DNA of 64,000 nt from Dysgonomonas sp. 25 (GTDB lineage: Bacteria > Bacteroidota > Bacteroidia > Bacteroidales > Dysgonomonadaceae), in contig NZ_QVMN01000011.1 in assembly GCF_010501075.1 (NCBI RefSeq), forward strand, positions 1 through 64,000, read 5' to 3'. The notes under the pieces are model-generated. The model had not been told where the DNA came from. It was given only the letters and a program-made list of their open reading frames with translations, and made no database searches. The position numbers were made by a program, and so were the translations under genes. Shown piece by piece: positions 5,824 to 26,714 of this stretch; positions within the stretch are counted from its first letter, which is position 1; the number at the start of each line of letters is the position of its first letter.

Positions 5824-6012
5824 ATGAAAAAGATGGAACAGATAGAAGCACACATCGACAAATCAGCAGCGCAAATCGACTATTTGAAAGTAAAACTTTC
5901 GAATGAGGCACAGGATTGTATGTACATCGGCATTTTGGGCATCATAAGGGAAATATTCAATCTGATAGACTTCCCAGCTAAATTAATCAAGAAAAAGCCA
6001 CAGGGAGAGTAG
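5824..6012 (+). CDS. Small unrecognised protein inside the glp operon
   Basis: 62 residues from an ATG 43 bases after glpC; a second ATG at 5833 is an alternative. The first half is charged and probably helical (KKMEQIEAHIDKSAAQIDYL). The second half has a hydrophobic amphipathic stretch (MYIGILGIIREIFNLIDF) and a lysine-rich tail. There is no signal peptide and no family I recognise. Its place between glpC and glpT, same strand and codon style, suggests a real gene, perhaps a small membrane-associated partner of GlpABC or GlpT. The function is not known. Confidence 0.55.
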   Translation: MKKMEQIEAHIDKSAAQIDYLKVKLSNEAQDCMYIGILGIIREIFNLIDFPAKLIKKKPQGE

Positions 6013-6156
6013 GGCATAGGGGCAGTGAGTCTTAACCTGAATTTAAATATAAGGTGTGAGGAGCTTAACTTCCGTGCTTTTCCTTTGCGAAGAGAAAATT
6101 CAAAACGAAATAATTGATCACTATTTAAAATAAACGTTTAACCTAAATTGAGAACC

Positions 6157-7500: not shown

Positions 7501-7515
7501 TATAAAACTAAAACC

Positions 7516-8436
7516 GTGAAAGCATTGAAAAACTTAACTTATCTATTACTACTCACCTTTCTTGTCGGTTGTGGCGGTTCGAAGACAGACCAGCAAGCAA
7601 CCGAAACTGGCAAGGTGCTGTTTGATGAACAGGCGCACCGGGGGGGACGCGGGCTGATGCCCGAAAATACCATCCCTGCCATGCTCGACGCTATCGACAG
7701 GGGTGTGACTACTCTCGAGCTGGATTTGCAGATATCGAAAGACAAGAAAGTCATCGTTTCGCACGATCCTTATTTCAATATGGATATTACTACTTTGCCC
7801 GATGGAGGTTATCTGACCAAAGACGAGGCAAAAAACCGGGTGCTTTATACCATGGATTACGACAGCATAAAGAAGTATGATGTGGGCATAAAAGGTAACC
7901 CGAAATTCCCTGATCAAAAGCGTATGGAAGCGGTAAAGCCTCTCCTTTTCGACCTGATAAAAGCTTCGGAAGAGCATGCTGCCGAACAGGGGAAAAAGAT
8001 GTATTACAATATCGAAATAAAATCGAAAGCGAATGGCGATGATAAGATACATCCGCCTGTTCCCGAATTTGTGGATCTGGCAATGAAGGTGATAACTGAC
8101 GGAGGTATAAAAGACCGCACTACTATCCAGTCGTTCGATGTGAGGGCATTGAAATACCTGCACGAACGCTATCCGGATGTTACCCTCTCTTACCTGATAG
8201 GCAAGAAAGATGACAAACCGGTGAAGGAACTATTTGACGCATTGGGCTTTGTGCCTCAGGTATTAAGTCCCGAATATGTGATTGTAACCGATACGATGAT
8301 CAGCGATTGCCACCAGATGAATGTCAAGATTCTGCCATGGACTATCAATGACAAAGACGAAATACAACGGCAAAAAAATATGGGGGTAGACGGCATTATA
8401 ACAGACTATCCGAATCTCTTTCGACTTGTAGAATAA
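7516..8436 (+). CDS. glpQ: Glycerophosphodiester phosphodiesterase lipoprotein
   Basis: 306 residues starting at GTG 7516. An SpII signal ends at FLVGC (C19), so the enzyme is a lipoprotein. The GDPD TIM-barrel motifs are present: AHRGGRGLMPENT, the metal-binding ELDLQISKD, and VSHDP. Family members hydrolyse glycerophosphodiesters to glycerol-3-phosphate and an alcohol. The B. subtilis GlpQ also trims glycerol-phosphate teichoic acid exolytically. Only 50 bases, with no hairpin, separate it from the first BACON lipoprotein, so transcription probably continues into the SusCD segment. Confidence 0.92.
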   Translation: MKALKNLTYLLLLTFLVGCGGSKTDQQATETGKVLFDEQAHRGGRGLMPENTIPAMLDAIDRGVTTLELDLQISKDKKVIVSHDPYFNMDITTLPDGGYLTKDEAKNRVLYTMDYDSIKKYDVGIKGNPKFPDQKRMEAVKPLLFDLIKASEEHAAEQGKKMYYNIEIKSKANGDDKIHPPVPEFVDLAMKVITDGGIKDRTTIQSFDVRALKYLHERYPDVTLSYLIGKKDDKPVKELFDALGFVPQVLSPEYVIVTDTMISDCHQMNVKILPWTINDKDEIQRQKNMGVDGIITDYPNLFRLVE

Positions 8437-11118: not shown

Positions 11119-14094
11119 ATGAAAAGCATTATGAATATAAAGAAAGCAAGAGGCTTCATCACATCATGCCTGATGATATGCCTCATCGGGTTATTCCCAT
11201 CTTTTGCTATAGCCCAGGACAAGATTTCGGTTTCGGGTACTGTAACCGACAAAGACGGGGAAGCACTGATTGGTGTGAGTGTTGTGGTGAAAGGGGATGA
11301 AGCGAATGGCGTTATGACTGATATCGACGGAAGTTATATCATCAATGCCGCTCCTACTGCTGTTCTGAAATTTTCGTATGTCGGCTATCAAACGATGGAA
11401 GAAAAGGTTCAGAACCGCACGACTATAAATATACGAATGGAAGAAAATACCAATCAATTGGAAGAAGTCGTAGTGGTCGGTTACGGAACGATGGAGAAAC
11501 GTGCCATCACAACATCCGTATCGTCTATCAAAGGGGATAACCTGACGACCGGTCTCGGAGGTGCAACAATTGCTACCGCCTTGCAAGGTAAGATTCCGGG
11601 ATTGACTATTTCCGGCACATCCAGTCCGAACTCTTCTAATGGATTCCAGCTTCGTGGGGTAGCCTCTGTTAATGCAAGCTCGGGTCCGCTCGTTGTTATC
11701 GACGGGATACCCGGTGGTGATATGCGTTCGCTTAACCAGGAAGATATTGAGTCTATCGATGTATTGAAAGATGCTTCAGCAGGTGCTATCTATGGTACAC
11801 GTGCTGCCGGCGGTGTAATCCTGATTACAACTAAACAGGCAAAAACCGGAGGTGTGAAATTGAGATATACCGGTGAAGTATCGATGGAAACAATCCGCAA
11901 AAGACCGGAAGTTCTCTCAGCGAGCCAATATATTGAAAGAGGTGTGGGTGCAGATTATGGTGGTGATACGGATTGGTATAACGAGTTGACGCGTGACAAT
12001 CCTATCTCGAACCGTCATGTCATAAATATTTCGGGAGGATCGGAAAATGCCTTGATTTATACGACCTTTACTACACAAGACCAGAAAGGTATTGTGATCG
12101 GCGATGCCCGCCGCGACTTCTCAGGACGTATCAATACGACATTCAAATTGTTGGAAGGAAAAGTTGAAATCAAAACAAACACGGAATACCGTCAGACGAA
12201 GAGAGATCAACGAAATTCATCTTCTACATTCAATATGGCACTCGCGTTGAATCCAACTATTCCGGTGTATGATGCTTCCACTCCGAGCGGATATAACATC
12301 AAGAACGGATTTGGTACTGACTATAACCCTGTAGCTGATATTATGCTGAAAAGCTATGATGGAAAAGACAGATGGTTGCTGACCGACGCTACTATGAAGA
12401 TAAAGCTTACAGATGAGCTTTCTGCTACCGGAACAATCGGTTATCAGGAAGCAGACTGGCAATTGACTACTTACCGCTCGGCTCAACATAAAGAATCGGA
12501 ATCGGGACAGAGAGGGTCTGCTTATCATGGTTATGACAAAAACAGACGTACATCTGTCGATGCATACTTGACATACGACAAAACGTTTGCAGAAGTACAT
12601 CGCCTGAATGCTGTCGGAGGTTATAGTTTCTGGGAATATAACCGCAGCTATTTCAATATGACAAACGGCGACTTCCCTATCGATGGAGTTGGTGCATGGG
12701 ATATGTCTTCGGGTATGGACCTGACTAACGGAAACGGTAAAGCTGCGATGAATTCGTACAAAGCACCAAGAGAAAGACTGATGGCTTTCTTCGGACGTGT
12801 AAACTATACCTTCAACGAAAAGTATATGTTGACAGCCAGTATCCGCCACGAAGGATCGTCTAAGTTCGGTAAAAACAACCGTTGGGGAGACTTCTGGGCA
12901 ATCTCGGGAGGATGGCGCGTATCTGACGAGAAATTCATTAAAGAGAACTTCGATTTCGTTTCGGAATTTAAAGTTCGTCTGGGATATGGTGTGACTGGTA
13001 ACAACGGTTTCGGAACAGGCTATACGACACGTATGTATACTTCTAACCAGATGTGGCCGACAAACGGTATCTGGAATCCGGGATACGGATCGAAACGAAA
13101 CGTAAACCCTGACCTGAAATGGGAAGAAAAATCCGAGTTGAACTTCGGTTTCGACTATGCATTCTTCAACAACCGCCTCTATGGTAAGTTCGATATATAC
13201 AACCGTAAGGTAGACGACATGCTATACGAAGTAAATGCACCTATGCCTCCGATGACGCATACCACCATCATGAAAAATGTGGGTAGCCTCCAGAATAGAG
13301 GTTGGGAATTTGAAATCGGTGGAGACATTATCAAAACCAAGGATTTCTCCTATTCCACAACTATGCGTTTCTCTCAAAATACCTCGAAAATAAAGGATAT
13401 GGGCGATGCTGGTTATTATTTGGATGAAGTAGCTTTTCCTTCTCCAGGAAACCCAGGGAAAGCAGTTCGACTGACAAACGGAACAGAAATAGGTAAGTTC
13501 TTTATCTTCAAATATGCAGGTTTAGACGAGAATGGTAAATTCCTGATATACGACAAAGATAACAATGTGGTACCGGCAAATGACAAAACCCTTATTGCAG
13601 CCAACAAACGCCATATGGGCAATGCGATGCCGAAGTTGATTGCTTCGTGGGATCACAATTTCAGTTATCGTAATTTCGATATGTCTGTTTCGTTGCGTAG
13701 CTGGATCGATTATGATGTTTTCAGCCAGGTAAACATGTATTACGGAATCGAAAACGGATCGCAGACAAACGTCCTGAAGAAAGCATTCGGCTATTATAGC
13801 GCTATCGATGACGAAAAAGTTCTTTGTGACCTTTGGTTGTCTGACGGTACTTTCCTCAAAATCGATGCTATCAATTTAGGATATACACTCAATGCGAAGA
13901 AATATACCAAATATATGGATAAAGCCCGTTTCTATCTGACGATGAGAGATGTTGCCATGTTTACCAAATACAAAGGTGTGAACCCTGAGGTAAACCTCAA
14001 CGGTCTGACTCCGGGCTTTGAGTATATCAAAGATAAAGATACGATGTATCCTCAAACAATTCGTTTCACATTAGGTGTACAATTAACATTCTAA
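11119..14094 (+). CDS. SusC-like TonB-dependent outer-membrane transporter
   Basis: 991 residues. Signal peptide to about residue 32, then a carboxypeptidase-regulatory-like domain (SVSGTVTDKDGEALIGVSVV), TonB box/plug start (LEEVVVVGYGT), and plug motifs (PLVVIDGIPGG; LKDASAGAIYGTRAAGGVI). The remainder is a 22-strand barrel ending in an aromatic-terminated strand (FTLGVQLTF). There is no N-terminal STN domain, so signalling to a sigma factor is not expected. It is paired with the SusD 12 bases downstream for glycan import. Substrate is inferred from neighbours as a phosphorylated, alpha-linked glycan. Confidence 0.93.
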   Translation: MKSIMNIKKARGFITSCLMICLIGLFPSFAIAQDKISVSGTVTDKDGEALIGVSVVVKGDEANGVMTDIDGSYIINAAPTAVLKFSYVGYQTMEEKVQNRTTINIRMEENTNQLEEVVVVGYGTMEKRAITTSVSSIKGDNLTTGLGGATIATALQGKIPGLTISGTSSPNSSNGFQLRGVASVNASSGPLVVIDGIPGGDMRSLNQEDIESIDVLKDASAGAIYGTRAAGGVILITTKQAKTGGVKLRYTGEVSMETIRKRPEVLSASQYIERGVGADYGGDTDWYNELTRDNPISNRHVINISGGSENALIYTTFTTQDQKGIVIGDARRDFSGRINTTFKLLEGKVEIKTNTEYRQTKRDQRNSSSTFNMALALNPTIPVYDASTPSGYNIKNGFGTDYNPVADIMLKSYDGKDRWLLTDATMKIKLTDELSATGTIGYQEADWQLTTYRSAQHKESESGQRGSAYHGYDKNRRTSVDAYLTYDKTFAEVHRLNAVGGYSFWEYNRSYFNMTNGDFPIDGVGAWDMSSGMDLTNGNGKAAMNSYKAPRERLMAFFGRVNYTFNEKYMLTASIRHEGSSKFGKNNRWGDFWAISGGWRVSDEKFIKENFDFVSEFKVRLGYGVTGNNGFGTGYTTRMYTSNQMWPTNGIWNPGYGSKRNVNPDLKWEEKSELNFGFDYAFFNNRLYGKFDIYNRKVDDMLYEVNAPMPPMTHTTIMKNVGSLQNRGWEFEIGGDIIKTKDFSYSTTMRFSQNTSKIKDMGDAGYYLDEVAFPSPGNPGKAVRLTNGTEIGKFFIFKYAGLDENGKFLIYDKDNNVVPANDKTLIAANKRHMGNAMPKLIASWDHNFSYRNFDMSVSLRSWIDYDVFSQVNMYYGIENGSQTNVLKKAFGYYSAIDDEKVLCDLWLSDGTFLKIDAINLGYTLNAKKYTKYMDKARFYLTMRDVAMFTKYKGVNPEVNLNGLTPGFEYIKDKDTMYPQTIRFTLGVQLTF

Positions 14095-14106
14095 ACCAAT
14101 ATTATT

Positions 14107-15816
14107 ATGAAGAATATAAATATAAAATATCTGAAAGGATTAGGAATTGGACTAATCGCATCTGTGCTGCTCGGTTCGTGTAGCTTGGATGAGAAATATT
14201 ATTCAGAATCGACGCCTGATAATTTCTTTACCTCGCCCGACAATGCTTATGCCGTATTGAGCCGTCCGTTTACGCACTGGCGCTGGTATGTAGGTAACGA
14301 TCGCTGGTATCTTCAGGAGTTAACAACCGACGAAATGGTAGCGCCAAGACGCGGTTCGGACTGGTACAACAGTGGCGAATACTATCGTCTGCACTATCAT
14401 ACATGGAGTGCCGAAGACCGTTTCATTGTAAATACTTACGATGGTACAACGGGAGGAATCTCCCGGGCATTGGAAGCCAAGGAAGACCTGTCGGGAGTAA
14501 ATTATAATTCGATAGGGTTGACAGATGTGGACAAAGACGACCATATCCAGCAGTTAGAATCCATTATTGCCTACTTCTATATGAAAGGCTTGGACTACTT
14601 CGGGGGGATGCCTATCTACGAATCTACCGAAGAACCGTTGAAAGGTCGTTCGACAGCCGAGGAAACGTTCAACCATATCGAAACACTTCTGACAAATGCG
14701 ATTCCTAAGCTGAAACAGAAAACACAACTCGTTCCGGCTACTACGCACGATGGATATATCAGCCAGGCAGCGGCAGCGTCACTGCTCGCTCAGCTATACT
14801 TCAATGCCAATGCTTATATCGGAAGAGATATGTTCAGCGAATGTGCTACGATCTGTCAGGATATAATCGACGGCGATTATGGTGCATACGACTTGGCTGA
14901 CACATGGTGGGAGCCACAAGGATTCGATAACGGATTATCTCCTGAAATCATCTGGGCTGTGCCTTCCGAATACGGAAAATTACAATGGGACTGGTATTTC
15001 AAGTATTTCTATCATTATAACTCTTTCAAATACTTCGATTCGGAAACGGCTGGTTACAACGGGTTTATCCTGACGCCATCCCGCAAACCGACAGGAGCTG
15101 TTTACACAGAATATAAATTAGGAAATACCTACGAGAAATTCCACAACCAGGATGTAAGGAAGAAGCCATACCGCTACTTCGGAAACAAATCTTACGAAGG
15201 GATGTTCTTAGTTGGGTCACAAGTTAACCCGAATAACCCGACTATGGTTTGCGAAGGACAGAAAGAGTATAAAGGACAGGTAATTAACCTCGTCGATATG
15301 GTTGCCCGTTTCTCCGAAGTAGGGTCAAAATATCCGTCTGTTTCCGCTTTACCGTCTACCATGGAAGATGGTGAAGAAAACTCGGGAATCCGTTTGGTTA
15401 AATCGCCTCAACCGAATATGACCGATATACATTTGCGCTACAATCCCGATTGTCCTGTAATCCGCTTAGCTGAAATATATTACATGCTTGCAGAGTGTAA
15501 AATGCGTGCAGGAGATAAAGCTGGTGCTGCCACTTTGATTAATAAGGTGAGAGCCCGTAACTTTGTCGGAGGAAGTGATCCGAATCCTGTTACAAGCGCT
15601 AATCTGGACGAATACAGAATGTTGGATGAATGGATGGTGGAATTTGTAGGAGAAGGACAAGCTCGCAGGCGTACAGATTTGATCCGTTGGGGCAAATTTG
15701 TAACGGATTCTTGGTGGGATCATACACCGAGCAATGATCCTACGAGAAATATTTTCCCTATCCCGAATACGGCTATTGCAGCAAACGGCTTGATAGAACA
15801 AAATCCGGGATATTAA
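14107..15816 (+). CDS. SusD-like outer-membrane glycan-binding lipoprotein
   Basis: 569 residues; SpII signal ends LLGSC (C25). It has the family hallmarks: an N-terminal EKYYSESTPDNFF segment, TPR-like helices in the first half, and a C-terminal RagB/SusD block (LRYNPDCPVIRLAEIYYM...INKVRARN...EWMVEFVGEGQARRRTDLIRWGKF). It forms the lid on the SusC barrel. The gap to susC is 12 bases and to the phosphoesterase 31 bases, so the three are co-transcribed. Confidence 0.93.
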   Translation: MKNINIKYLKGLGIGLIASVLLGSCSLDEKYYSESTPDNFFTSPDNAYAVLSRPFTHWRWYVGNDRWYLQELTTDEMVAPRRGSDWYNSGEYYRLHYHTWSAEDRFIVNTYDGTTGGISRALEAKEDLSGVNYNSIGLTDVDKDDHIQQLESIIAYFYMKGLDYFGGMPIYESTEEPLKGRSTAEETFNHIETLLTNAIPKLKQKTQLVPATTHDGYISQAAAASLLAQLYFNANAYIGRDMFSECATICQDIIDGDYGAYDLADTWWEPQGFDNGLSPEIIWAVPSEYGKLQWDWYFKYFYHYNSFKYFDSETAGYNGFILTPSRKPTGAVYTEYKLGNTYEKFHNQDVRKKPYRYFGNKSYEGMFLVGSQVNPNNPTMVCEGQKEYKGQVINLVDMVARFSEVGSKYPSVSALPSTMEDGEENSGIRLVKSPQPNMTDIHLRYNPDCPVIRLAEIYYMLAECKMRAGDKAGAATLINKVRARNFVGGSDPNPVTSANLDEYRMLDEWMVEFVGEGQARRRTDLIRWGKFVTDSWWDHTPSNDPTRNIFPIPNTAIAANGLIEQNPGY

Positions 15817-15847
15817 TTCAACTGATATAATTAAAATTGGATAAATC

Positions 15848-17341
15848 ATGAATAAAATAATGAAATTATTACTGATAGTATTCCTCTCCGGTATTTTCCT
15901 GAACTGCTCGGATGAGGACAGGCCTACGAGAGAGGGCGGCAACAATAATTCGGCCGGCTCGATAAAGGTCAAAGAAGGAATGAACCTCGTAGGGATGGTC
16001 TTGGACGGAAACACCCCGATAGAAGGTGTTGTCGTAAGTGACGGATATACTGTCACAAAAACTGATGAAGACGGTATATATCAGATGAGCGCCAACAGAG
16101 ACGCTAAGTTTGTATTCCTTTCGGTTCCTGCCGATTGCGAAATACCGGTGGGTGCAAATAATATCCCGAAAATCTATAAGACTATCGGTGTTATTAAGCA
16201 GGGAGATGTATTGCGCCGCGACTTCTCGTTGAAAAGAACTCAAAAAATTGAGAACTTCACCTTGTTGGCATTGGCTGACGTACAGATCGGAAATAGTACT
16301 GATTTGAATCTTCTGAAAGTAGAAGTCCCTAAAATAAAGAGCTATATAGACAGCAAAATTACTACACCTGTTTATGGAATTTCTTTAGGAGACTTAGTGT
16401 GGGATAACATGCCTTATCTGCAACAATATGCAGAGGAGACAGGTTTGATTGGTGTTCCGACATTTCAGGTGATTGGAAATCACGACCATAATAAGGCTGT
16501 TTTATCTGACGATGCCGGATCAGCTGTGGATTTTGAAGCTAACTTCGGACCTACTTATTACTCTTATAATATCGGAGATTGCCATTTTGTTGTGCTCGAC
16601 GATGTTTTGTACACCGGGGATAAGAATTACACAGGTAATATTACACAAAATCAGTTGGATTGGTTGAAGAAGGACTTGGAACATGTTTCTAAAGATAAGT
16701 TGATTATTTTGGGAGTACATATCCCTACTAAACGTAGAAATTCTTCCGGAGCAGTATCCAACAATCAGGATTTGTATACCATTCTTGACGGATATAAAGT
16801 ACGTATATTATCAGGGCACTCGCACAATAACTATACGACAACTATATCACCCGATATAGAGGAAAATACTATGGGATCGGTTATGGGTGCATTCTGGTCG
16901 GGAGATTTGTGTAACGATGGTAGCCCACGTGGTTATACTATTTACGAGATTGAAGGGAATGAGATCAAAAACCGTTATTATAAAGGAACGAGCCACGACC
17001 GCGATTACCAGATGTATCTCTATAACATCGGCGAAGCTGTTACGGTAAGCAGACAAGACGGCTTGATATTTAATCTTTTCAACTGGCACACAAACTGGAC
17101 AGTGAAAGTCTATGAAGATGGCGTATATACTACTACTCTGACCAACAATGTAAAAGAACTGGATCGCCGTGCTTACGATTTCATGGATGGCCCGAGCAAA
17201 CCGGCTTACCGTCCGAGCGCAGAGCCGGAGAGAAATAACGATCATATGTTCTATTATAAGCCGTCGGCATCGTGGAGTACGGTGAAAGTAGAAGCGACAG
17301 ATCCTTATGGAAATACATATATTCAATCGATAAACAGATAA
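15848..17341 (+). CDS. Secreted calcineurin-like metallophosphoesterase lipoprotein
   Basis: 497 residues with SpII signal (FLNC, C20). Domains in order: a carboxypeptidase-regulatory-like fold (about 45-130; GMVLDGNTPIEGVVVSDGYT), a calcineurin-type phosphoesterase core (about 135-340), and a C-terminal beta domain (about 345-497). Metal-binding motifs are ADVQIG (D144), GDLVWDN, GNHDH, GVHIP and SGHSHNN. The usual first motif D-x-H reads D-V-Q, so one metal ligand is altered. It probably hydrolyses phosphomono- or diesters at the cell surface or periplasm. With glpQ it supplies the locus with a second phosphoesterase. Confidence 0.87.
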   Translation: MNKIMKLLLIVFLSGIFLNCSDEDRPTREGGNNNSAGSIKVKEGMNLVGMVLDGNTPIEGVVVSDGYTVTKTDEDGIYQMSANRDAKFVFLSVPADCEIPVGANNIPKIYKTIGVIKQGDVLRRDFSLKRTQKIENFTLLALADVQIGNSTDLNLLKVEVPKIKSYIDSKITTPVYGISLGDLVWDNMPYLQQYAEETGLIGVPTFQVIGNHDHNKAVLSDDAGSAVDFEANFGPTYYSYNIGDCHFVVLDDVLYTGDKNYTGNITQNQLDWLKKDLEHVSKDKLIILGVHIPTKRRNSSGAVSNNQDLYTILDGYKVRILSGHSHNNYTTTISPDIEENTMGSVMGAFWSGDLCNDGSPRGYTIYEIEGNEIKNRYYKGTSHDRDYQMYLYNIGEAVTVSRQDGLIFNLFNWHTNWTVKVYEDGVYTTTLTNNVKELDRRAYDFMDGPSKPAYRPSAEPERNNDHMFYYKPSASWSTVKVEATDPYGNTYIQSINR

Positions 17342-17350
17342 AATAAATGT

Positions 17351-17384
17351 AAGAGAGAGGCTGGCTATCTCCGGCCTCTCCCTT
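17351..17384 (+). terminator. Hairpin after the phosphoesterase gene
   Basis: A 10-bp stem (GAGAGGCTGG with CCGGCCTCTC, one G-U pair) around a 6-base loop, followed by CCTTTCTATTTT. The T run is interrupted, so it may only attenuate transcription into the GH31 gene 50 bases later. Confidence 0.6.
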
Positions 17385-17433
17385 TCTATTTTCCGAACGA
17401 TAAAAACAACATCCTTTAATAATTTATAAGTAG

Positions 17434-19674
17434 ATGAGAGCAAAAGTAACATTACTCTTCTTAGCCTTTGTGTGTTTACTGACAACAATGTCAGCACAAG
17501 AATATAAAAACCCTATTGTGTTTGGCAACAACCGCTTAACGCTGGTTTCGCCGACACTCTTCCGTCTCGAATATGCCGAAGGTGGTAAATTCGTAGACGA
17601 CAAAACCATGTTTGCCTACAACCGCGATTCGCTCTTGCAGGACTTCGAGGTGAAGAAAATAGATGACCGCAAGTACGAAATCACGACTTCGGCTCTGCGT
17701 ATGGTTTTCGACAATGACGGATTTCCGTTCGGGCTGCACAACTTCCACGTATTCTATAATATGAATGGGAAAGAGCAGAAATTTACCATCCGCAACATCC
17801 ACAAAAACAATCTGGGCGGAGCTATCTCTACCCTCGACCGTGTGAGCGAGCCTATTCCGTTGGACGATGGCTTATTGAGCACCGACGGTTGGTATATCAT
17901 CGACGATGCAGGCAAAGACATCCTGAAAAATGACTGGCTTGCACCTCGCGACCGTAGCCATGTGCAGGACTTATACTGTTTCGTGTACGGCAAGGATTAC
18001 AAAGCAGCATTGAAAGACTTGGGACGTATCAGCGGGCATGTGCCTATGACGCGTAAATATATACACGGCGTGTGGTATTGCCGTTACTGGCCTTACACCA
18101 CCGACGAATACCTGCAATTGGTTAATGAATATAAGGAAAATAATTTCCCGCTGGACATTATGGTATTCGATATGGACTGGCACACTTACGGCGCAACCGT
18201 AGGTACAGGACATGCCGGCACAAGAAGCTGGACAGGCTATACATGGAACAAAGAATTGATTCCCGATCCTAAAAACCTGATTCAGACTTTGCTGAAAGAT
18301 TCGATATACGTTTCGCTGAACGAGCATCCGCATGACGGAATCCGCCCGCACGAATCGATGTATCCTGAATTTATGCAGGCTATGGGTAAGAAAGCTGACG
18401 GATCATCTATCCTGTTCGATGCCGGAGACAGAAAATATATGACCAACTTCCTCAAATATGCTCACGGCGAAAGCTGGGATATGGGAGTTGCTTTCTGGTG
18501 GCTCGACTGGCAACAGAATTACCTCTATCACAATGTAAGAGGATCGCAGACAACCAATCTGACATGGCTGAATAAGCTTTATTACGACGATTCGGCTCGC
18601 AACGGATTGCGTGGGGCAGGGTATAGCCGTTGGGCAGGATTTGGCGACCACCGCCATCCTATCCAGTTCTCGGGCGACGCTCATGCCAATTGGGAGATGC
18701 TGGCATTCGAAATAGAATTGACAAGCACCAGCGGAAATGCCGGTTGCTACTACTGGGCGCACGATATTGGCGGATTCTACGGAGGGAAAGATCCCGAACT
18801 ATATACCCGCTGGACGCAATTCGGAGCGTTGAGTGCCGCTTTGCGTGTACACTCACAGAAGAAAGCCGACTTAGACCGCCGTCCGTGGATATGGGGCGAA
18901 CAGGCTACTGAAGCTACCCGCAAGACATACCATTTCCGTTCCGAAATGTTGCCGTATATCTACTCCAGCGTCAGAGAAACGCACGAAACGATGGTGCCTC
19001 TCAACAGGGCGATGTATATCGATTATAGCGAAGAGAAAGAAGCGTACAAGAATCCGCAAGAATTCATGTTCGGAGACTTGCTGCTTGCTGCGCCTATCAC
19101 ACAGGCTGGAAAAGGAGAGAATAAAATTGCTTCGCAAACAGTCTGGTTTCCTGAAGGTGATACATGGTTCGACTTTTTCGATGCTACCGGATACAAAGGT
19201 GGTACCAAAACCGAAATCAGCAAAGATATATACGAGTTTCCTTTATTCGTAAAAGGTGGTTATATACTGCCTATGCAGCCATACAGGTCGCGTCCGGCTT
19301 CTGCGCCGTTGAGCGAACTCGTGTTGAGGGTTTATCCCGGTGCAGACGGAGCAGACAATACCTTCTCGCTCTACGAAGACGATGGTGTGTCTACCGAATA
19401 TGAAAAAGGGAAATATGCTAAAACGGCTTTGAACTATAAGCAATCGGGCAACAAAGTCACGCTGACTGTGAACCCGACAGCGGGAGAATACACAGGGCAA
19501 TTGGCTAAAAGAGCATATACAGTGGAATTGGCAGGATGGGATAAGGTGAAATCGGTGAAAGTGAACAAAAAGACCGTGAAACCGACTTACGATGCCCAAA
19601 AGAAAATGTATATCATCAAAATCAAGCCCGAATCGATACGAAAATCTATAATACTAAATATAGAGGTTGGTTAG
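17434..19674 (+). CDS. GH31 family alpha-glycosidase, secreted
   Basis: 746 residues with a cleavable signal (LLTTMSAQ). The N-terminal beta-sandwich is followed by a TIM barrel with GH31 landmarks: PLDIMVFDMDWHT (the -1 subsite strand), the nucleophile motif FWWLDWQQN (D358), and the acid/base motif FSGDAHANWE (D415). The C-terminal beta domains resemble DUF5110 (FSLYEDDGVSTEYE). GH31 enzymes retain configuration and mostly cleave alpha-glucosides, alpha-galactosides or alpha-xylosides. The exact specificity cannot be read here. Last + strand gene of region 1; in context it may remove alpha-sugar substituents before phosphodiester cleavage. Confidence 0.9.
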   Translation: MRAKVTLLFLAFVCLLTTMSAQEYKNPIVFGNNRLTLVSPTLFRLEYAEGGKFVDDKTMFAYNRDSLLQDFEVKKIDDRKYEITTSALRMVFDNDGFPFGLHNFHVFYNMNGKEQKFTIRNIHKNNLGGAISTLDRVSEPIPLDDGLLSTDGWYIIDDAGKDILKNDWLAPRDRSHVQDLYCFVYGKDYKAALKDLGRISGHVPMTRKYIHGVWYCRYWPYTTDEYLQLVNEYKENNFPLDIMVFDMDWHTYGATVGTGHAGTRSWTGYTWNKELIPDPKNLIQTLLKDSIYVSLNEHPHDGIRPHESMYPEFMQAMGKKADGSSILFDAGDRKYMTNFLKYAHGESWDMGVAFWWLDWQQNYLYHNVRGSQTTNLTWLNKLYYDDSARNGLRGAGYSRWAGFGDHRHPIQFSGDAHANWEMLAFEIELTSTSGNAGCYYWAHDIGGFYGGKDPELYTRWTQFGALSAALRVHSQKKADLDRRPWIWGEQATEATRKTYHFRSEMLPYIYSSVRETHETMVPLNRAMYIDYSEEKEAYKNPQEFMFGDLLLAAPITQAGKGENKIASQTVWFPEGDTWFDFFDATGYKGGTKTEISKDIYEFPLFVKGGYILPMQPYRSRPASAPLSELVLRVYPGADGADNTFSLYEDDGVSTEYEKGKYAKTALNYKQSGNKVTLTVNPTAGEYTGQLAKRAYTVELAGWDKVKSVKVNKKTVKPTYDAQKKMYIIKIKPESIRKSIILNIEVG

Positions 19675-19703
19675 AGGTTAATATTTTTTTTTAGTGATCA
19701 GGG

Positions 19704-19739
19704 TACCCGGTAGAGAAGCGTCTTTACCGGGTATTTTTT
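19704..19739 (+). terminator. Strong terminator ending the region 1 operon
   Basis: Perfect 9-bp stem TACCCGGTA/TACCGGGTA with a 12-base loop, then a run of T (ATTTTTTG). It sits between the GH31 gene and the convergent ECF S-subunit gene. Confidence 0.9.
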
Positions 19740-19758: not shown

Positions 19759-20271
19759 TTATTTTCTGATTAAATACTTGATAAACAGATAGCCGCCTAT
19801 TATTTGCAGTACCATTCCCGGGATGCCTAAGCGGAAATCCTGAACAGCAACATAGAAGTCGCCTTTGAGTATCCATTCGCCCAATACACCCACAACTTGG
19901 TATGACAATACGACGGCAATCAGGATAGGAATGGAAATCCGCTTGAAGTAATGTGCTGCGAAACCTGCTGCCAGTGCGAGCAAAGATGATTTCATGACGA
20001 TTTCGGGTAGTACGTTTATCATCGGCATGCCGAATAGCAGATGGTTTATTACCGGCGATAGTATTGCCGTCAGCAATCCTAACTTCCATCCGTATTTGAA
20101 TGCCCCTATCAACGTGAAAAAGTAGATAGGCAGCAAGATAAGCCCTCCGTTGGGTATCAGGTGCACCAATTGCGGCAAGACAATGTTACCTGCGACAAAA
20201 GCGGCTGCTATGAGGTAAGTCTTTGCCTGTGTATAACTTAACGAATAGAGTTTTAAAGTTGTTGTTCCCAT
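19759..20271 (-). CDS. ECF-type transporter substrate-binding (S) subunit
   Basis: 170 residues with about six hydrophobic segments, and a compact fold typical of ECF S components (VAGNIVLPQLVHLIPNGG; GFAAHYFKRISIPILIAVVLSYQVVG). S components bind vitamins or other micronutrients and need the shared EcfA/EcfA'/EcfT energising module, none of which is encoded here. It may use a module elsewhere or act alone. Last gene of the minus-strand cluster, 12 bases after the DUF1893 gene. The ligand cannot be told from the sequence. Confidence 0.75.
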   Translation of the reverse strand: MGTTTLKLYSLSYTQAKTYLIAAAFVAGNIVLPQLVHLIPNGGLILLPIYFFTLIGAFKYGWKLGLLTAILSPVINHLLFGMPMINVLPEIVMKSSLLALAAGFAAHYFKRISIPILIAVVLSYQVVGVLGEWILKGDFYVAVQDFRLGIPGMVLQIIGGYLFIKYLIRK

Positions 20272-20283
20272 TTTTATATAGTG

Positions 20284-20715
20284 TTATTGTTGTTTATTAC
20301 TTTTCATTTTTTCTACAAAACCCTCGATCAGCTTATAAAGCTCCGGTAGCGAATCCGTTGCCAGACAGATGCTTTCCAGCGGACAGCTGCCCGATTTATC
20401 CCTGTTCTCGATGAAAGGGACGAGTTTGCCATATGCTACTTCTATTTGATGCTTTCTTAGCAAAGCCATTGCTGCCTCGCTGATTACGTCGGTATAAATA
20501 TATTTCACTCCCCCGGTTATCATCAGGGCTGCTGCGCCTTTGCCGACTACCTTGTCGGCTACCGAAGCTCCTTCTAAGAAAGGACGGTCGTTTTGCAGCA
20601 ATTCGTATATATCGGCAACGCCCCGCTTGGTGAATGTGCGGACGTCGTCGCCGTTGGATATTACGCAGGAATATCCTCCCGTATGCAATCGTTCGATAAT
20701 CGTTTTATTGTCCAT
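20284..20715 (-). CDS. DUF1893-family protein
   Basis: About 143 residues from the ATG at 20715; an in-frame GTG at 20730 would add five residues. It resembles the DUF1893 family (GGYSCVISNGDDVRTFTKRGVADIYELL, GKGAAALMITGGV). It is cytoplasmic, with no signal peptide. It holds cysteines at the GGYSC motif and a C-terminal CPLESIC pair, which could bind a metal or thiol (inference). The family has no firmly established function that I know. It lies between a TonB receptor and the ECF S subunit, so a role tied to the imported compound is likely. Confidence 0.75.
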   Translation of the reverse strand: MDNKTIIERLHTGGYSCVISNGDDVRTFTKRGVADIYELLQNDRPFLEGASVADKVVGKGAAALMITGGVKYIYTDVISEAAMALLRKHQIEVAYGKLVPFIENRDKSGSCPLESICLATDSLPELYKLIEGFVEKMKSNKQQ

Positions 20716-20733
20716 AATGATATTCTTCACTTT

Positions 20734-22602
20734 TTATAAATTAAGCAATGCTCCCGCCATGAATGTGGCGCGCGGCATCGGATAACCAAGCATCGTTTCG
20801 TATCTCCTTGCCAGCAGGTTATCCCCTTTGACAAAGAGGCCGAGCCATTTGTAGGCTTGATATGACACGCGGGCATCAACTAAGGTATAACTGCTCGCTT
20901 GAGGCGTATTTTCGGTAGCAAGATACAGCTTGCCGATGACCTGTGCCCCTGCATTGAAAGAGAACTTACCCGGATGATAGGTCAGCCCTGCATAGAACTT
21001 ATTTCGTGGCGAGCCGGTAATAAGCTTATCCATGTGCAGGTAACTGTAGTTGCTGTGCAGGGCAAGATTGTTCAGTATCTGATAGTTCAGGCTGACTTCT
21101 ACCCCTTTGTTCGCAAACTTTCCGGCATTCCGGTTTTGTGGGTGCCCTCCGACCTGAACAACCTCCACTATGTTATCGCCTTTGATGTAGAATAGCGTCA
21201 ATTCAGCCATCAGGCGATTGTCGAATAATCCTTGCGAGACAGTGAAATCATAGCTCAAACTGCTTTCGGGCAGCAAATCCTCGTTGGCAGAAGCATACAT
21301 GTACAACTCGCGGAGGTTGGGGGTGCGAAAGCCTTTCGATACCGAGAACTTCAGATGCGTCTGTTCCGTCGCTTTCAGCGAGAAACCTCCCTGAGGAATC
21401 CATTTGCGGCCGTATAATTTATGGTTTTCCAAGCGGATGCCGGCATTGAGCATCAAAGGGCCTAACGCCTGCTGGGCAAAAAGGTATCCGGCTACTTCGT
21501 GTAGCTTGATATGGTCGGCATAAATTTCTGTCTGCGGATCGCGATAGGCATTTCCGCCGTATATTTTCGCGTCGAATCCACCTGTTATGGTATTACCTTG
21601 GAAGAGGTTTACCGATTGGTAAATATTCACCCCACCCATATAATCGGTCGATTTGAAGAGGTAGGGGCGTGGCGTTCCGCCTGCAAAATATCCGTCATTT
21701 ATCTTGTGGTCGCCCCAGTTGTAGAAGAAATTGGCAGCCCCGCTGGTTTTGTCGTATTTATTTTCGACAGATAAGCCCGACATGCCGCGCAGGACATTGG
21801 CTTTGCCGTCGAGCATAGGTCTGCTTGCCGTACCGGGATTGTTCGAATGGGATTTGGCAATATTGACATTACCCGTTACTTTCCATTCTTCGGCAAATTC
21901 GTAGCCCAGTTTTGTGAATCCGCTCAGCGATTCGAATCCTGAATTTGTACGATGCCCGTCGGTGCGTTCGTAGTTGGCGCTGGCCACGCCGGAAAATTGT
22001 CCGTTGCGGTAACTGTCCGTAAGCGAATAGCGCTGCGTACCGTAAGAGCCACCCATCAACCGCGCCGATAGCCTGTTGCCGTCTTCGAGTGCTTTGCGGG
22101 TGATGATGTTGATAGCGCCGCCCATCGCATTCGACCCGTAGAGGATGGATGCCGCGCCGCGCGATACCTCTACCTGTTGGGCTTCGGAAGCGATATAGGC
22201 ATCAGCCACAGGGTGTCCGTAGATAGTCGCATATTGCGGATGCCCGTCGATGAGGATAAGGACGCGCCCTGCACCTCCCGAGAAGCCGCGAAGATTAATC
22301 CCTCCTGCCGCGCCGCCCGATACGCCATATCCGGCAATACCGCGTGAAGTAACAAAGAGATTCGGTACATGCTTCATCAATACAGGAAGCAGATTTGTTT
22401 CTTCGCTTTGCTCGATGGTTTCGCGGTTTACGATGCTTATCGGCACAGGAATCATCTCGCGCTGAACGGGTATGCGCGAGCCTGTAACGACAACTTCATC
22501 CAGCCTGTAATTCTTCTGCGTGGAAGTGCTGTCGTTTTTGTTCTGGCTGAATATTGCCTGTGATAGACAGAGGATAAAAATGATAGATACAATTTTCTTC
22601 AT
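20734..22602 (-). CDS. TonB-dependent outer-membrane receptor (BtuB/FepA type)
   Basis: 622 residues from the ATG at 22602, where a signal peptide begins (MKKIVSIIFILCLSQAIFSQ). The longer open frame to 22725 would run into the upstream gene. It has a TonB box (YRLDEVVVTGSRIPVQRE), a plug domain (GGINLRGFSGGAGRVLILIDG; VEVSRGAASILYGSNAMGGA), and a barrel ending in phenylalanine/leucine strands. Unlike SusC proteins it lacks the carboxypeptidase-like extension and a SusD partner, and its size suits a small cofactor or metal chelate. Co-transcribed with the redox genes upstream. Confidence 0.9.
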   Translation of the reverse strand: MKKIVSIIFILCLSQAIFSQNKNDSTSTQKNYRLDEVVVTGSRIPVQREMIPVPISIVNRETIEQSEETNLLPVLMKHVPNLFVTSRGIAGYGVSGGAAGGINLRGFSGGAGRVLILIDGHPQYATIYGHPVADAYIASEAQQVEVSRGAASILYGSNAMGGAINIITRKALEDGNRLSARLMGGSYGTQRYSLTDSYRNGQFSGVASANYERTDGHRTNSGFESLSGFTKLGYEFAEEWKVTGNVNIAKSHSNNPGTASRPMLDGKANVLRGMSGLSVENKYDKTSGAANFFYNWGDHKINDGYFAGGTPRPYLFKSTDYMGGVNIYQSVNLFQGNTITGGFDAKIYGGNAYRDPQTEIYADHIKLHEVAGYLFAQQALGPLMLNAGIRLENHKLYGRKWIPQGGFSLKATEQTHLKFSVSKGFRTPNLRELYMYASANEDLLPESSLSYDFTVSQGLFDNRLMAELTLFYIKGDNIVEVVQVGGHPQNRNAGKFANKGVEVSLNYQILNNLALHSNYSYLHMDKLITGSPRNKFYAGLTYHPGKFSFNAGAQVIGKLYLATENTPQASSYTLVDARVSYQAYKWLGLFVKGDNLLARRYETMLGYPMPRATFMAGALLNL

Positions 22603-22610
22603 CTTCGCTT

Positions 22611-23999
22611 TTAAAAGTCGAGACTTTGCTTCAACTGTTCGGTGTAGGCATCTATACGCCTCATTTCGGACGGGATATTTATCCTTTGCGGGCAAAGAGG
22701 CTTGCAGATGTCGCATCCGATGCAATGGCTTGCCTGTCGCAGTTTCGGTACGCTGCGGTCGTATCCGACGAGGAATGCCCGTCGCGCCTCCTTATACTTC
22801 TCATCCTTAGAACTTTTCAGCCTGTATCCGGCACTTACGATGCGGTTGTAATGCCCGAATACGCCGGGGATGTCGAGCCCGTAAGGGCAAGGCATACAAT
22901 ATTGGCACTCGGTGCATTGGATATAGTTGGAGTTGACCAGTATGTCGGTCACCTGTTCGAGCGTTTCGTATTCCTTCTCATTCAACGGTACCAGAGGGGC
23001 ATAGGTGCGTATGTTCTCCTGCAAATGCTCCATATAGACCATGCCGCTAAGGACAGAGAGCACATTGTCGGGCGTGCCTGCATACCTGAATGCCCATTGT
23101 GCCGGCGTATGATCGGGATGGATTTCTTTCATCATATTAAAAGCCTGCACCGGCACTCTTGCAAGGCGTCCGCCAAGGAGAGGCTCCATGATAATAGCCG
23201 GGATATTGCGCTTTACTAACTCGGCATTGAGGTATTCGGCGTTTACATTCATGCCGGTGGCATATTTCCAATCCTGATAATTGAGTTGTATCTGGCAGAA
23301 ATCCCACTTGATATTCTGTGCGAGGATGTAATCGAACACTTCGACGACGCCGTGGAAAGACCATCCCAGATTGCGGATGCGTCCTGCTTCGCGTTCTTTT
23401 AGGAGGTATTCCAGCAGCCCGTTGTCGATGAAGCGGCTATGGAAATCTTCTTTGCTCCGCCCTATGTTGTGCAGCAGATAGTAGTCGAGATAATCGACCT
23501 GTAAGTCTTCCATCGATTTTTTGTACATGGCTACCCCGGTGGCGAATGTGTTGTCGCCTCGCATATTAGATGCTTTGGTGGCAATGAAATACTTATCCCG
23601 CGGGTGGCGGCTCAACGCTTTGCCTGTTGCCGCTTCCGACCATCCCCGCACATATACGGGTGCAGTGTCGAAATAGTTTACCCCGTGCGCGATGGCATAG
23701 TCTACCAGTTCGTTCACCGTGTCTTGATCCACTTCTTCCTCGCCTTTGCTGTTGGTGCGCAGCGGCCAGCGCATGCAACCATACCCGAGCAGCGAAACCT
23801 TATCTCCTGTATGCGGGTTTATGCGGTATGTCATCTGGTCGGTAGGCACTTCTCCTATGGCGCCGCCTTCGGCCGATACAGTATTGTCAGGCTTACATCC
23901 AACAAGTGTTGTTGCCGTGATGGCAGAACCGACGCCCACTGTTTTCAGGAAGCTCCGGCGGCTTATATCTTTTTTATTCTTGTTCTTTTCGTTTTTCAT
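22611..23999 (-). CDS. Tat-exported aldo/keto reductase with ferredoxin domain
   Basis: 462 residues. The N-terminus has a twin-arginine signal (ISRRSFLKTVG, R14-R15) followed by a lipobox-like LVGC (C35), so it is probably a periplasmic or membrane-attached lipoprotein. The TIM barrel shows the aldo/keto reductase tetrad context (NYFDTAPVY, FIATKAS, YYLLHNIG). The C-terminus holds two [4Fe-4S] motifs (CTECQYCMPCPYG and CIGCDICKPLCPQR). An exported AKR cannot rely on cytoplasmic NADPH, so electrons more likely come through its own clusters from the neighbouring NapH/NapG-like protein (inference). The substrate is unknown. Confidence 0.88.
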   Translation of the reverse strand: MKNEKNKNKKDISRRSFLKTVGVGSAITATTLVGCKPDNTVSAEGGAIGEVPTDQMTYRINPHTGDKVSLLGYGCMRWPLRTNSKGEEEVDQDTVNELVDYAIAHGVNYFDTAPVYVRGWSEAATGKALSRHPRDKYFIATKASNMRGDNTFATGVAMYKKSMEDLQVDYLDYYLLHNIGRSKEDFHSRFIDNGLLEYLLKEREAGRIRNLGWSFHGVVEVFDYILAQNIKWDFCQIQLNYQDWKYATGMNVNAEYLNAELVKRNIPAIIMEPLLGGRLARVPVQAFNMMKEIHPDHTPAQWAFRYAGTPDNVLSVLSGMVYMEHLQENIRTYAPLVPLNEKEYETLEQVTDILVNSNYIQCTECQYCMPCPYGLDIPGVFGHYNRIVSAGYRLKSSKDEKYKEARRAFLVGYDRSVPKLRQASHCIGCDICKPLCPQRINIPSEMRRIDAYTEQLKQSLDF

Positions 24000-24007
24000 A
24001 TCCTCAT

Positions 24008-25531
24008 TTAAACTGCGTGATGTCTAACATTACCTTCTACATATATCGCGCTGAACGGCCGTGCAGGGCACAGGTTTTCGCAAGCCCCGCACCCGATGCA
24101 GAGTTCGTTGTTGATAACCGGTATTTTCAGCGACTTTTCATTGTCGGGATCGCGCTTAATCAGCGTAATAGCGCCTGTCGGGCAATGACGTTCGCAATTG
24201 GTACATTGTATTTCGTCCCTGTTGACCACACAATTGTCTTTTATCCATACGGCAATGCCGATAGACAGGGCTGACTTGTCGGCGGCGGTGATAGGCTTGA
24301 TGGCGCTTGTGGGGCATACCTGCGAACATTCGACACACTCGGGGCGGCAATAGCCTTCCTCGTAGGTTATTTCGGGCTGCATGAATGTCTCCAACTTGCT
24401 CGAAGGGACTAATATATTGTTAGGGCACGCCGACACGCATAGCTGGCAGGCTGTGCAATGGTCTTTCATATTTTTGGCACTCAATGCACCCGGCGGGACG
24501 ATAGGCGTTTTTCGGTCGGGGATTTTCTTTTCCTCTATTTCGGCCAATCCGCCGTCGACATGCAATTGCTGCGCTTTGATTGTGCTGCTTACGGCGAGCG
24601 TCCCCAATAGTGCCAACAGGCTACGGCGCGAAAGGCCATCGTCGTTGTGCTCTATATTCGACGTGTTTGAGGCGGTGGTTTGCTCTGTTGCCGCTTTTTT
24701 GCTGCCCAGTTTGACAGGAGCATATTTTATGGCGCCCGACTTACATTTATCGATGCAGTTGAAGCAGGTCACGCAGCGGCTATGGTCGATAGTCATATTC
24801 TTCGAGTCGATGCACGATGCTTTGCAATTCCGTTCGCACGCCCGGCATTTGGTACATTTATCTTCTACGAATGTCAGCCGGAAGAAGGAGAATCTCGACA
24901 GGAAGCCGAGAATTGTACCCACGGGACAGATCGTATTGCAATAGGTGCGTCCGTGCCGCCATGCGAGTATTCCCACGGCTATCAGTGTAGCTACTGCCAC
25001 GCCGAATATTATCCAGCTTTTTATCCATACGTCGGTCGAATAGAATGCGTAGCTGTCGGCATGCTCCGCGGCGGCAGCCAGCAGGTTGTTGCCTGTGCGA
25101 TAGATAGGTGCCAACAGGTTAGAGGCTATGCGCCCGTATGCCGCATATGGGTCGAGGATGGAAACAACAGCGCTCACGTTGAATAGGAGAGCCACAACAA
25201 AGAGTGCTGCTACGCCATAGCGCAGCCACGATTTGGCGGATGAGTAGCGGAAACGGTTCTTTTTCTTTTTTCTCCTTGCCGACAGGTTGGATATTCCATC
25301 CTGAAATACGCCCAACGGACAGATGACCGAGCAGTATATCCGCCCGAAGATGAGCGTGAGAACGACAAGGCCTACGATAACTGCAACATTGACAGCGAGT
25401 ATGGCGGGGATGAGTTGTACTTTGGCCATCCATCCAAACCAATGATGCAATATTCCTGTGAAATCGAGGAATAGGAGCGTTATCAGTAGGAAGAATATAG
25501 CAGCCGTAAAGGTTCTGACTTTTTTTAACAT
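24008..25531 (-). CDS. Fused NapH-NapG-like quinol dehydrogenase, multi-[4Fe-4S]
   Basis: 507 residues. Residues 1-270 look like NapH: several transmembrane helices, two CxxxCP motifs (CSVICPLG, CNTICPVG) and two ferredoxin clusters (CTKCRACERNC, CVTCFNCIDKC). An internal twin-arginine motif (LSRRSLLALLG, R302-R303) follows a linker, and then a NapG-like part with four cluster motifs (CTACQLCVSACP, CRPECVECSQVCP, CTNCERHCP, CIGCGACENLCP). NapGH takes electrons from quinol to periplasmic acceptors. Here both parts seem to be one polypeptide, next to a Tat-exported ferredoxin reductase and with no nitrate reductase. First gene of the cluster. Confidence 0.85.
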   Translation of the reverse strand: MLKKVRTFTAAIFFLLITLLFLDFTGILHHWFGWMAKVQLIPAILAVNVAVIVGLVVLTLIFGRIYCSVICPLGVFQDGISNLSARRKKKKNRFRYSSAKSWLRYGVAALFVVALLFNVSAVVSILDPYAAYGRIASNLLAPIYRTGNNLLAAAAEHADSYAFYSTDVWIKSWIIFGVAVATLIAVGILAWRHGRTYCNTICPVGTILGFLSRFSFFRLTFVEDKCTKCRACERNCKASCIDSKNMTIDHSRCVTCFNCIDKCKSGAIKYAPVKLGSKKAATEQTTASNTSNIEHNDDGLSRRSLLALLGTLAVSSTIKAQQLHVDGGLAEIEEKKIPDRKTPIVPPGALSAKNMKDHCTACQLCVSACPNNILVPSSKLETFMQPEITYEEGYCRPECVECSQVCPTSAIKPITAADKSALSIGIAVWIKDNCVVNRDEIQCTNCERHCPTGAITLIKRDPDNEKSLKIPVINNELCIGCGACENLCPARPFSAIYVEGNVRHHAV

Positions 25532-25973: not shown

Positions 25974-26714
25974 TTAGAGCAGTTCCTTATCCATGTCGGG
26001 CGCACGGAAAGAATAAAGGATGGGAGGGTTATACGTCTTGCCGCTCACCGTCTCGTCCAACTGTACCACCGAGCCTTCGGATAATATCTTCCGCTGGAAG
26101 TTTCGCCTATCGAATTCCTTTTCCATGATGATTTCGTATATCTTGCGCAGTTCGGTCATGGTGAATTTCTCGGGCAGCAACTCGTATCCGATGGGGATGA
26201 CAGGCAGCATGGCACGGATGGTTTTCAACGCTGTCTTTATGATGTTTTCGTGGTCGGACTGCAAATGAGGCAGCTTCTGGATGTCGTACCATTTCAATGA
26301 TTCGTCGGGAGCGGCAGATAGTTTGACGTTGTCGTATTTGACTAATGCGTAATATCCCATCGTAATGAACCTTCTTAAAAGCCATTTTCCTTCCTCTTCC
26401 GAAGAGGCATTCCTGTTTATGTAATTCTTGTTTTGCTCCATATCCGTTCGCGTCGGGTCGCTGAACAAATGAAACTGGCGGAGGAACATATTCCTTGTGC
26501 CCGTATGATGTTCCAGAATGCGGTAAGCTGCTTGTTCGGAATCCTCGTGGTTGTACATAAATCCTCCGAGCAAAGACCAGTAATCTTCTAATGCGAATTT
26601 TCTCAGCAATACCTGTAATTTCCGCTTATGGAAGCTGAATATCACACAGTCTACCGAAAATCCCGGGTGTATATCTTCTTCTTTGTAGTAATAATCAAAA
26701 TTATCTTTTTTCAT
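25974..26714 (-). CDS. NrtR/AraR-like transcriptional regulator with degenerate Nudix domain
   Basis: 246 residues. Residues 1-160 are a Nudix-fold domain (VDCVIFSFHKRKLQVLLRKF), and the C-terminal 80 residues are a winged helix (EKFTMTELRKIYEIIMEKEF, NFQRKILSEG). In the Nudix box the catalytic R-E-x-x-E-E segment reads RILEHHTG, so hydrolase activity should be lost and the domain likely acts as a ligand sensor. This is the NrtR family, which includes the arabinose regulator AraR of Bacteroides. The divergent gap holds three identical-type palindromes, so this protein probably controls the GH3 operon and perhaps itself. Confidence 0.85.
   Translation of the reverse strand: MKKDNFDYYYKEEDIHPGFSVDCVIFSFHKRKLQVLLRKFALEDYWSLLGGFMYNHEDSEQAAYRILEHHTGTRNMFLRQFHLFSDPTRTDMEQNKNYINRNASSEEEGKWLLRRFITMGYYALVKYDNVKLSAAPDESLKWYDIQKLPHLQSDHENIIKTALKTIRAMLPVIPIGYELLPEKFTMTELRKIYEIIMEKEFDRRNFQRKILSEGSVVQLDETVSGKTYNPPILYSFRAPDMDKELL

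Follow-up and report, generated by a model that had tools for sequence, protein, structure and literature searches.

A five-gene operon of Dysgonomonas sp. 25 can tentatively be read as a route that scavenges a scarce micronutrient, probably base-like (heterocyclic), couples its uptake to redox chemistry and traps it inside the cell by nucleotide-type chemistry; the probability of this reading is put at roughly 0.42. The operon lies on the minus strand of a 64,000-nucleotide stretch (contig NZ_QVMN01000011.1, positions 1 to 64,000; hereafter the window), where its genes are packed inside positions 19759-25531 with intergenic gaps of 8, 8, 18 and 12 bp:

24008..25531, minus strand: NapH-NapG-like (NapHG) fusion (TIGR02163 and TIGR00397, both below cut-off; Fer4; cysteine conservation)
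22611..23999, minus strand: lipoprotein aldo/keto reductase (AKR) exported by twin-arginine translocation (Tat), with a C-terminal two-[4Fe-4S] ferredoxin domain (PF00248, Fer4, alignment, AlphaFold2 fold)
20734..22602, minus strand, start at the ATG at 22602: TonB-dependent outer-membrane receptor (PF00593, PF07715)
20284..20715, minus strand: DUF1893/TM1506 protein (PF08973, 1.2e-48)
19759..20271, minus strand: S component of the energy-coupling factor (ECF) type, with no ECF module in the genome (PF12822, 8.3e-5, below cut-off; AlphaFold2 fold)

In the proposed route, the compound would cross the outer membrane via the TonB receptor. In the periplasm, the AKR-ferredoxin lipoprotein, linked by NapHG to the quinone pool, would change its oxidation state. 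The S component alone would then carry it across the inner membrane, much like some BioY and BtuM proteins, which are described as transporting without an ECF module (PMC11109136). Finally, cytoplasmic DUF1893 would convert the compound to a non-leaking form, in the place held by a phosphoribosyltransferase in sister systems. Here we infer that all parts act on one compound, and any direction of electron flow in the AKR-NapHG step is likewise deduced. All of the parts are members of known families or are similar to them, and the combination would be an uptake type built from a TonB receptor and a solitary S component. A sequence-only reading of the window had already named these five families in one tightly packed run, and the operon structure and the profile searches both bear it out.

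Predicted roles of the five products

The fusion protein matches TIGR02163 (NapH/MauN) at 4.7e-21, scoring 75.5 against a cut-off of 213, and TIGR00397 (MauM/NapG) at 7.5e-20, scoring 71.4 against 178.9. Because both scores fall below the curated NCBIfam cut-offs, the protein is, by profile, NapHG-like and not NapH or NapG proper. It has four hydrophobic segments, two C-x3-C pairs and two plus four iron-sulphur motifs, and 27 of its 29 cysteines are kept in all 61 aligned rows, with the remaining two kept in 60 (sequences containing stops or X, and identical duplicates, were left out of the alignments). It is probably an electron carrier that connects the quinones with the periplasm, in one direction or the other. 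With the NapGH/MauMN systems it shares a NapH-like membrane part and a NapG-like iron-sulphur part; unlike them, it is one fused chain, scores far below the family cut-offs, and has an AKR lipoprotein as its partner.

The AKR matches PF00248 (1e-35) and Fer4, and its AlphaFold2 model matches AKR structures. In an alignment of 40 rows (39 rows chosen by hand from 52, together with the window protein), the twin arginine, the tetrad D111, Y116, K142 and H177, and the eight ferredoxin cysteines are all invariant, while the lipobox Cys35 is conserved in at least 90% of rows. The score against the general Tat model TIGR01409 is just below the cut-off (16.5 against 16.7). TatC is encoded in the source genome (4.7e-61), and 16 of the 80 named DUF1893 loci described below have it on the same strand, no more than 6 kb away. 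Given the conserved Tat and lipobox features, tetrad, ferredoxin cysteines and NapHG cysteines, together with the presence of TatC, the AKR is by these signatures an exported protein and is very probably connected to the quinone pool. Export had been proposed in the sequence-only reading, which named a cytoplasmic, NADPH-dependent AKR as a finding that would refute it, and the window protein does possess the export signals. The best sequence matches of the AKR among solved structures are L-galactose dehydrogenases. Its C-terminal 'SGM' aligns with the 'VGM' of these enzymes, one of which was solved with NAD; NAD(P) binding by the window AKR is thus conceivable, the C-terminal pocket motif not being decisive.

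Other putative redox proteins also occur in the vicinity of this pair. Flavodoxin_4 matches stand beside NapHG or AKR in L064, L099, L115, L155, L156, L184, L188 and L192; those read have signal-like N termini (L155 alone was scanned with Pfam), and the protein is perhaps a further periplasmic electron carrier. In L060 (at about 11386) and L095 (11105-11755), a gene for an Fe/Mn superoxide dismutase stands among the operon genes or adjoins them; the L095 protein, the one scanned with Pfam, has a signal-like N terminus.

The S component scores 23.1 bits against PF12822 (8.3e-5), below the cut-off of 30.7, and its profile found no solved chain at E ≤10. Its AlphaFold2 model has a mean predicted local distance difference test score of 90.2, and the 15 best PDB matches of the model are all S components or ECF transporter chains, with template modelling (TM) scores up to 0.70, E values of at least 0.014, and sequence identities of 12-18%. 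PDB 4huq, which is labelled just 'transporter' and is presumably HmpT, is among these. The fold is thus held in common with RibU, FolT, ThiT and HmpT; unlike those proteins, the S component occurs in genomes that mostly lack EcfT (PF02361). EcfT is absent from 19 of the 22 S-component genomes (it is present in G011, G078 and G182), and none was found in the source genome, by a search that as a control finds EcfT in 10 of 14 well-known genomes. Because of this missing partner, the window protein is labelled a solitary S component and not an ECF transporter, just as the lone S subunit of the sequence-only reading would have it. Distant S components were also seen in other Bacteroidota (L153 7549-8109, 23% identity; L154 7294-7878, 20%), one of them belonging, by eye, to a sugar-acid cluster that includes a LarA-like gene and the other lying near DUF362.

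DUF1893 matches PF08973 with 164.5 bits against a cut-off of 27, its residues 6-134 covering positions 2-130 of the 130 in the profile. Against 1vk9 (TM1506) the match is 3.2e-26, with the D-K-x-x-G-K motif aligned. D54 and K55 are conserved in 87 of 88 rows and C111 in all 88, and no hydrophobic segment was found in the window protein. With Thermotoga maritima TM1506 (1vk9) and PDB 9e9a it shares the Pfam family and the motif D-K-x-x-G-K-x-A-A; unlike in those cases, DUF1893 here is tied to an uptake operon and is joined in frame to TonB receptors and, once, to an AKR. The junctions with receptor signal sequences occur in seven loci (L022, L023/L068, L039, L048 from Butyricimonas, L091, L041 and L043). 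In the first five, no Met heads the receptor signal sequence, and in L041 and L043 that Met is kept; given a Met inside the hydrophobic stretch of L022, L023/L068 and L091, translation may also start internally there. An N-terminal domain placed ahead of an internal Sec signal stays in the cytoplasm, and the position of DUF1893 in frame before the receptor signal sequence suggests that it is a cytoplasmic protein. In G096 (L039 8056-10344), the joined DUF1893 has lost the D-K pair, and this genome has no AKR or S-component match. DUF1893 was not found in viral contigs, and the plasmid collection holds one record of it. No paper on a role of DUF1893 in uptake was found in open-licence PubMed Central, even though the structure 1vk9 has been solved.

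The nearest solved relatives of the TonB receptor by sequence are YncD/PqqU and BtuB. Against the BtuB model TIGR01779 the receptor scores 156.7, below the curated cut-off of 599.7.

Recurrence and exchange of partners in Bacteroidales

The arrangement of the five genes is not due to chance, because it recurs in other loci and the families co-occur. A scan of genome contigs yielded at least 586 DUF1893 relatives, of which the best 80 were taken (L040-L119, the named loci); this set was chosen by similarity to the query and not at random, and the organisms in it are Bacteroidales or kin of theirs. On the same strand and within 6 kb of DUF1893, an AKR is found in 63 of these loci, NapHG in 58 and the S component in 50. 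These neighbourhood counts, like those of co-occurrence below, use bit-score thresholds chosen by the analyst, and absences are not firm in 24 of the 80 loci, where less than 5.5 kb of flanking sequence is available on at least one side. The sets L021-L039 and L040-L119 have some genomes in common, L023 and L068 being one example. A public record of Bacteroides finegoldii displays the order NapHG, AKR, DUF1893, S component, the last of which is annotated 'hypothetical protein'. The neighbourhood survey that the sequence-only reading proposed as a check, with lack of conservation as a ground for abandoning it, thus found a conserved neighbourhood.

Co-occurrence was counted in 198 Bacteroidales genomes, which are not phylogenetically independent; phylum-wide draws (395 genomes) contained few Bacteroidales. 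Of the 198, 20 have DUF1893, 22 have the S component and 31 have the AKR (those over 600 bits among 37 genomes at E ≤1e-60); 15 have all three. The observed overlaps are 16 genomes for DUF1893 and the S component (2.2 expected), 18 for DUF1893 and the AKR (3.1 expected), and 16 for the S component and the AKR (3.4 expected). Moreover, the tie between DUF1893 and the S component is not merely one of linkage, since the two genes are on different contigs in six genomes (G018, G019, G058, G078, G106 and G182).

Another line of evidence comes from the partners that replace one another beside the S component. Sixteen of the 22 S-component genomes have DUF1893. Of the remaining six, five encode a phosphoribosyltransferase of the purine type, and G121 encodes an S-adenosylmethionine-dependent methyltransferase beside the S component. 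In L151, L152, L158, L159, L163 and L164, the phosphoribosyltransferase gene comes immediately after the S-component gene or overlaps its end; in G108 it lies away from it. It encodes 132-135 amino acids, and its closest solved relatives are purine phosphoribosyltransferases; both proteins scanned with Pfam match PF00156, and both scanned with NCBIfam have the xanthine type as their best match, below the cut-off. Close homologues (E < 1e-60) occur in 6 of the 198 genomes (G030, G058, G108, G144, G164 and G165), all of which have the S component, and G058 is the only genome with both DUF1893 and the phosphoribosyltransferase. Distant matches (E ~1e-25) occur in G072 and G176, where no S-component match was found. 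With kinship ignored (G030 and G144 belong to one genus, as do G058 and G164), the chance probability is 1e-6 for the link between phosphoribosyltransferase and S component and 0.0013 for the exclusion of DUF1893. It appears, then, that DUF1893 is exchangeable with a phosphoribosyltransferase, a kind of enzyme that joins a sugar-phosphate to a base.

The redox partner is exchanged as well. In L151, L158, L159 and L160, the S-component gene run contains NapHG and a DUF362 protein instead of the AKR, and in L158, the one scanned, Pfam sees a Tat signal on the DUF362 protein. DUF362 proteins (LarA clan) also recur within related operons or next to them in L031, L034, L048, L075, L091, L149 and L185, the one in L034 being lipoprotein-like by eye.

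Perhaps the most telling variants are three metagenome-assembled genomes, L103 (Prevotella), L106 (Rikenellaceae) and L118 (Alistipes), in which the gene after the S component encodes an AKR-ferredoxin that is 371-379 amino acids long and has no Tat signal. These AKRs are 32% identical to the window AKR, stops occur in the upstream frame, and no NapHG match was found in the 20 kb covered at each locus. Because an AKR without a signal is paired with the S component where NapHG is missing, the AKR step would follow the transporter in either compartment, and these three loci provide the strongest evidence for a link between that step and the compound being transported. They would constitute a natural compartment swap tying the redox step to the transporter. 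They also amend the periplasmic reduction of the sequence-only reading: the window AKR is exported as that reading supposed, but the reaction need not be periplasmic.

The kind of compound and its trapping can be approached through the same exchange. A review reports that TM1506 is ADP-ribosylated on an Asp, the site not being given there, and names a deaminase-like fold for it (PMC8946771). The purine type of the phosphoribosyltransferase, taken with that deaminase-like fold, points to a base-like compound, which DUF1893 would presumably trap by catalysis. As near-complementary partners of one S-component family, DUF1893 and the phosphoribosyltransferase make the function of DUF1893 testable. 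If the reading holds, it would suggest how a lone S component accumulates a compound without ATP in common gut bacteria, for example Bacteroides fragilis (L041, L043), through a gene team that is common to gut and environmental Bacteroidales. No description of this operon or of the partner exchange was found, by title or abstract, in open-licence PubMed Central.

A more specific version of the trapping step is conceivable, if rather improbable. In it, DUF1893 would be an NAD-dependent ADP-ribosyltransferase acting on a small base: an ADP-ribosyl-aspartate would form on the protein, and its ADP-ribose would then be handed to the base that the S component brings in, yielding an NAD-like dinucleotide. 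It would then be the unrelated replacement of a phosphoribosyltransferase, and the operon would perform a group translocation. Were this true, the lone S component would be driven from both sides, by a redox change in the periplasm and by the formation of a nucleotide within the cell.

Scavenging route weighed against other explanations

Several observations count against the scavenging route. NapHG-AKR occurs without DUF1893 or the S component in 12 of the 31 AKR genomes, with NapHG adjacent in all 12; conversely, 4 of the 20 DUF1893 genomes (G021, G096, G139 and G148) have no S component. At the chosen thresholds, nine of the 80 named loci show no AKR and no S component within 6 kb, although some of these lie on truncated contigs and the AKR of L087 is itself truncated. 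A TonB gene is within 6 kb on the same strand in just 19 of the 80. In G139 (L030), one of the genomes without the S component, DUF1893 runs in frame behind a Tat-exported AKR, which would make it periplasmic. No riboswitch was found in the window region, in 10 S-component loci or in 7 operon loci, and no recurrent pathway gene that would name the compound was found in 118 loci. The strict version of a single uptake pathway, as in the sequence-only reading, keeps its operon and its conserved neighbourhood but has against it the free-standing NapHG-AKR pairs, the scarcity of nearby TonB genes and the three loci with a signal-less AKR and no NapHG.

The exchange of cytosolic partners can also be read more narrowly. 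In a tree of S components (62 rows thinned by hand to 54, plus the window protein, L153 and L154, with L164 from G058 absent), the six phosphoribosyltransferase rows fall in one set of ten rows (95/86). Since they fall in one clade, the exchange may be a single event, and the clade may have another substrate. In favour of the exchange, however, the same set includes the copies of G019 and G106 and the second copy of G182, which are genomes with DUF1893 and without the phosphoribosyltransferase; the G182 row has a long branch.

As for the redox step, menaquinol is a weak donor for carbonyl groups by standard potentials. Carbonyl reduction with menaquinol would therefore be uphill, and the exported AKR may instead oxidise its substrate, with the electrons passing to menaquinone.

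This last point, together with the free-standing pairs and the L-galactose dehydrogenases among the best solved matches of the AKR, favours the explanation that survives best beside the scavenging route, albeit a somewhat unlikely one. It holds that two independent modules share the operon: NapHG-AKR would be a respiratory enzyme that stands on its own in the periplasm, where it perhaps dehydrogenates sugars, alcohols or aldehydes and feeds menaquinone, and TonB-DUF1893-S component would be a separate uptake unit. The strong co-occurrence of the two modules speaks against it, as do the three loci in which a signal-less AKR-ferredoxin follows the S component and the gene runs in which NapHG and DUF362 accompany the S component.

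Another means by which the genes could be connected is the supply of a special nucleotide cofactor and not of a nutrient. Here, a base resembling pyridine or purine would be imported by the S component and made into a nucleotide by DUF1893 or the phosphoribosyltransferase, and Tat would export the AKR (or DUF362 protein) already loaded with that nucleotide. Tat does export folded, cofactor-loaded proteins, and AKRs use pyridine dinucleotides. The phosphoribosyltransferase is paired with DUF362 in L151, L158 and L159, whereas DUF1893 goes with the AKR; DUF362 is placed in the Pfam clan of LarA (PMC11770544), and the ADP-ribosylated Asp of TM1506 (PMC8946771) would fit as well. However, the AKR occurs without DUF1893 and the S component in those same 12 genomes, the phosphoribosyltransferase of L163 and L164 has no DUF362 match beside it, and DUF362 is also found in DUF1893 operons (L031, L034, L048 and L091). 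LarA-like genes are not associated with the S component (3 of the 198 genomes against 3.1 expected) and are absent from the source genome. On balance, a cofactor supply is distinctly unlikely.

Least probable of all, DUF1893 might be a regulator that detects NAD or ADP-ribose through modification of itself, controls uptake or is stationed at the membrane, and does not act on the imported compound. The ADP-ribosylated Asp reported in the review would agree with this (PMC8946771), and the fusions would place DUF1893 at the inner membrane face, at the receptor signal sequence, but the proteins complementarily present with the same S-component family are enzymes, namely the phosphoribosyltransferase and the methyltransferase.

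Known systems, rejected substrates and surroundings

BtuM is the solitary S component of vitamin B12 uptake in some Gram-negatives, and the pairing of BtuB with BtuM resembles the window operon in its TonB receptor near BtuB and its S component without an ECF module. Unlike that system, the window operon type adds a redox protein linked to the quinones and a presumably cytosolic partner, either DUF1893 or a phosphoribosyltransferase, no BtuM title appears among the 50 listed fold matches of the window S component, and there is no cobalamin riboswitch. Cobalamin was accordingly rejected as the substrate, the receptor being far below the BtuB cut-off and the window region, 10 S-component loci and 7 operon loci containing no such riboswitch. 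A queuosine precursor was rejected too, as queC, queF and queE are near the S component in L038 only, among 118 loci, and do not recur. Salvage of the nickel-pincer (LarA) cofactor was rejected on the LarA counts given above; LarA-like genes are seen beside the S component in L163 and the distant L153 (by eye, and in G164 also by search).

Upstream of the operon by 442 bp and on the same strand is an NrtR-like gene (NUDIX and winged helix, 25974-26714). It was rejected as the regulator of the operon, since no match to it was found in L040-L119 and the one match elsewhere, of 36%, is in L159, some 5 kb away from its S component. A Bacteroidetes-type promoter pattern is unmatched upstream of NapHG. 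At the other end of the operon there is one further feature:

19700..19737, no strand assigned: terminator-like hairpin between the operon and the convergent glycosidase gene (consensus match only)

The region contains 4 terminator-like sites against a mean of 7.6 in its shuffles, that is, no enrichment.

Farther away, open reading frame translations read by eye place a DeoR-type regulator, the glycerol-3-phosphate dehydrogenase GlpABC, a GlpT-like transporter and a glycerophosphodiesterase in one run at 692-8436, to all appearances an ordinary anaerobic glycerophosphodiester cluster. Convergent with the operon, positions 11119-19674 encode, again by eye, a SusC/SusD-like pair, an exported calcineurin-like protein and a glycosidase resembling glycoside hydrolase family 31 (GH31).

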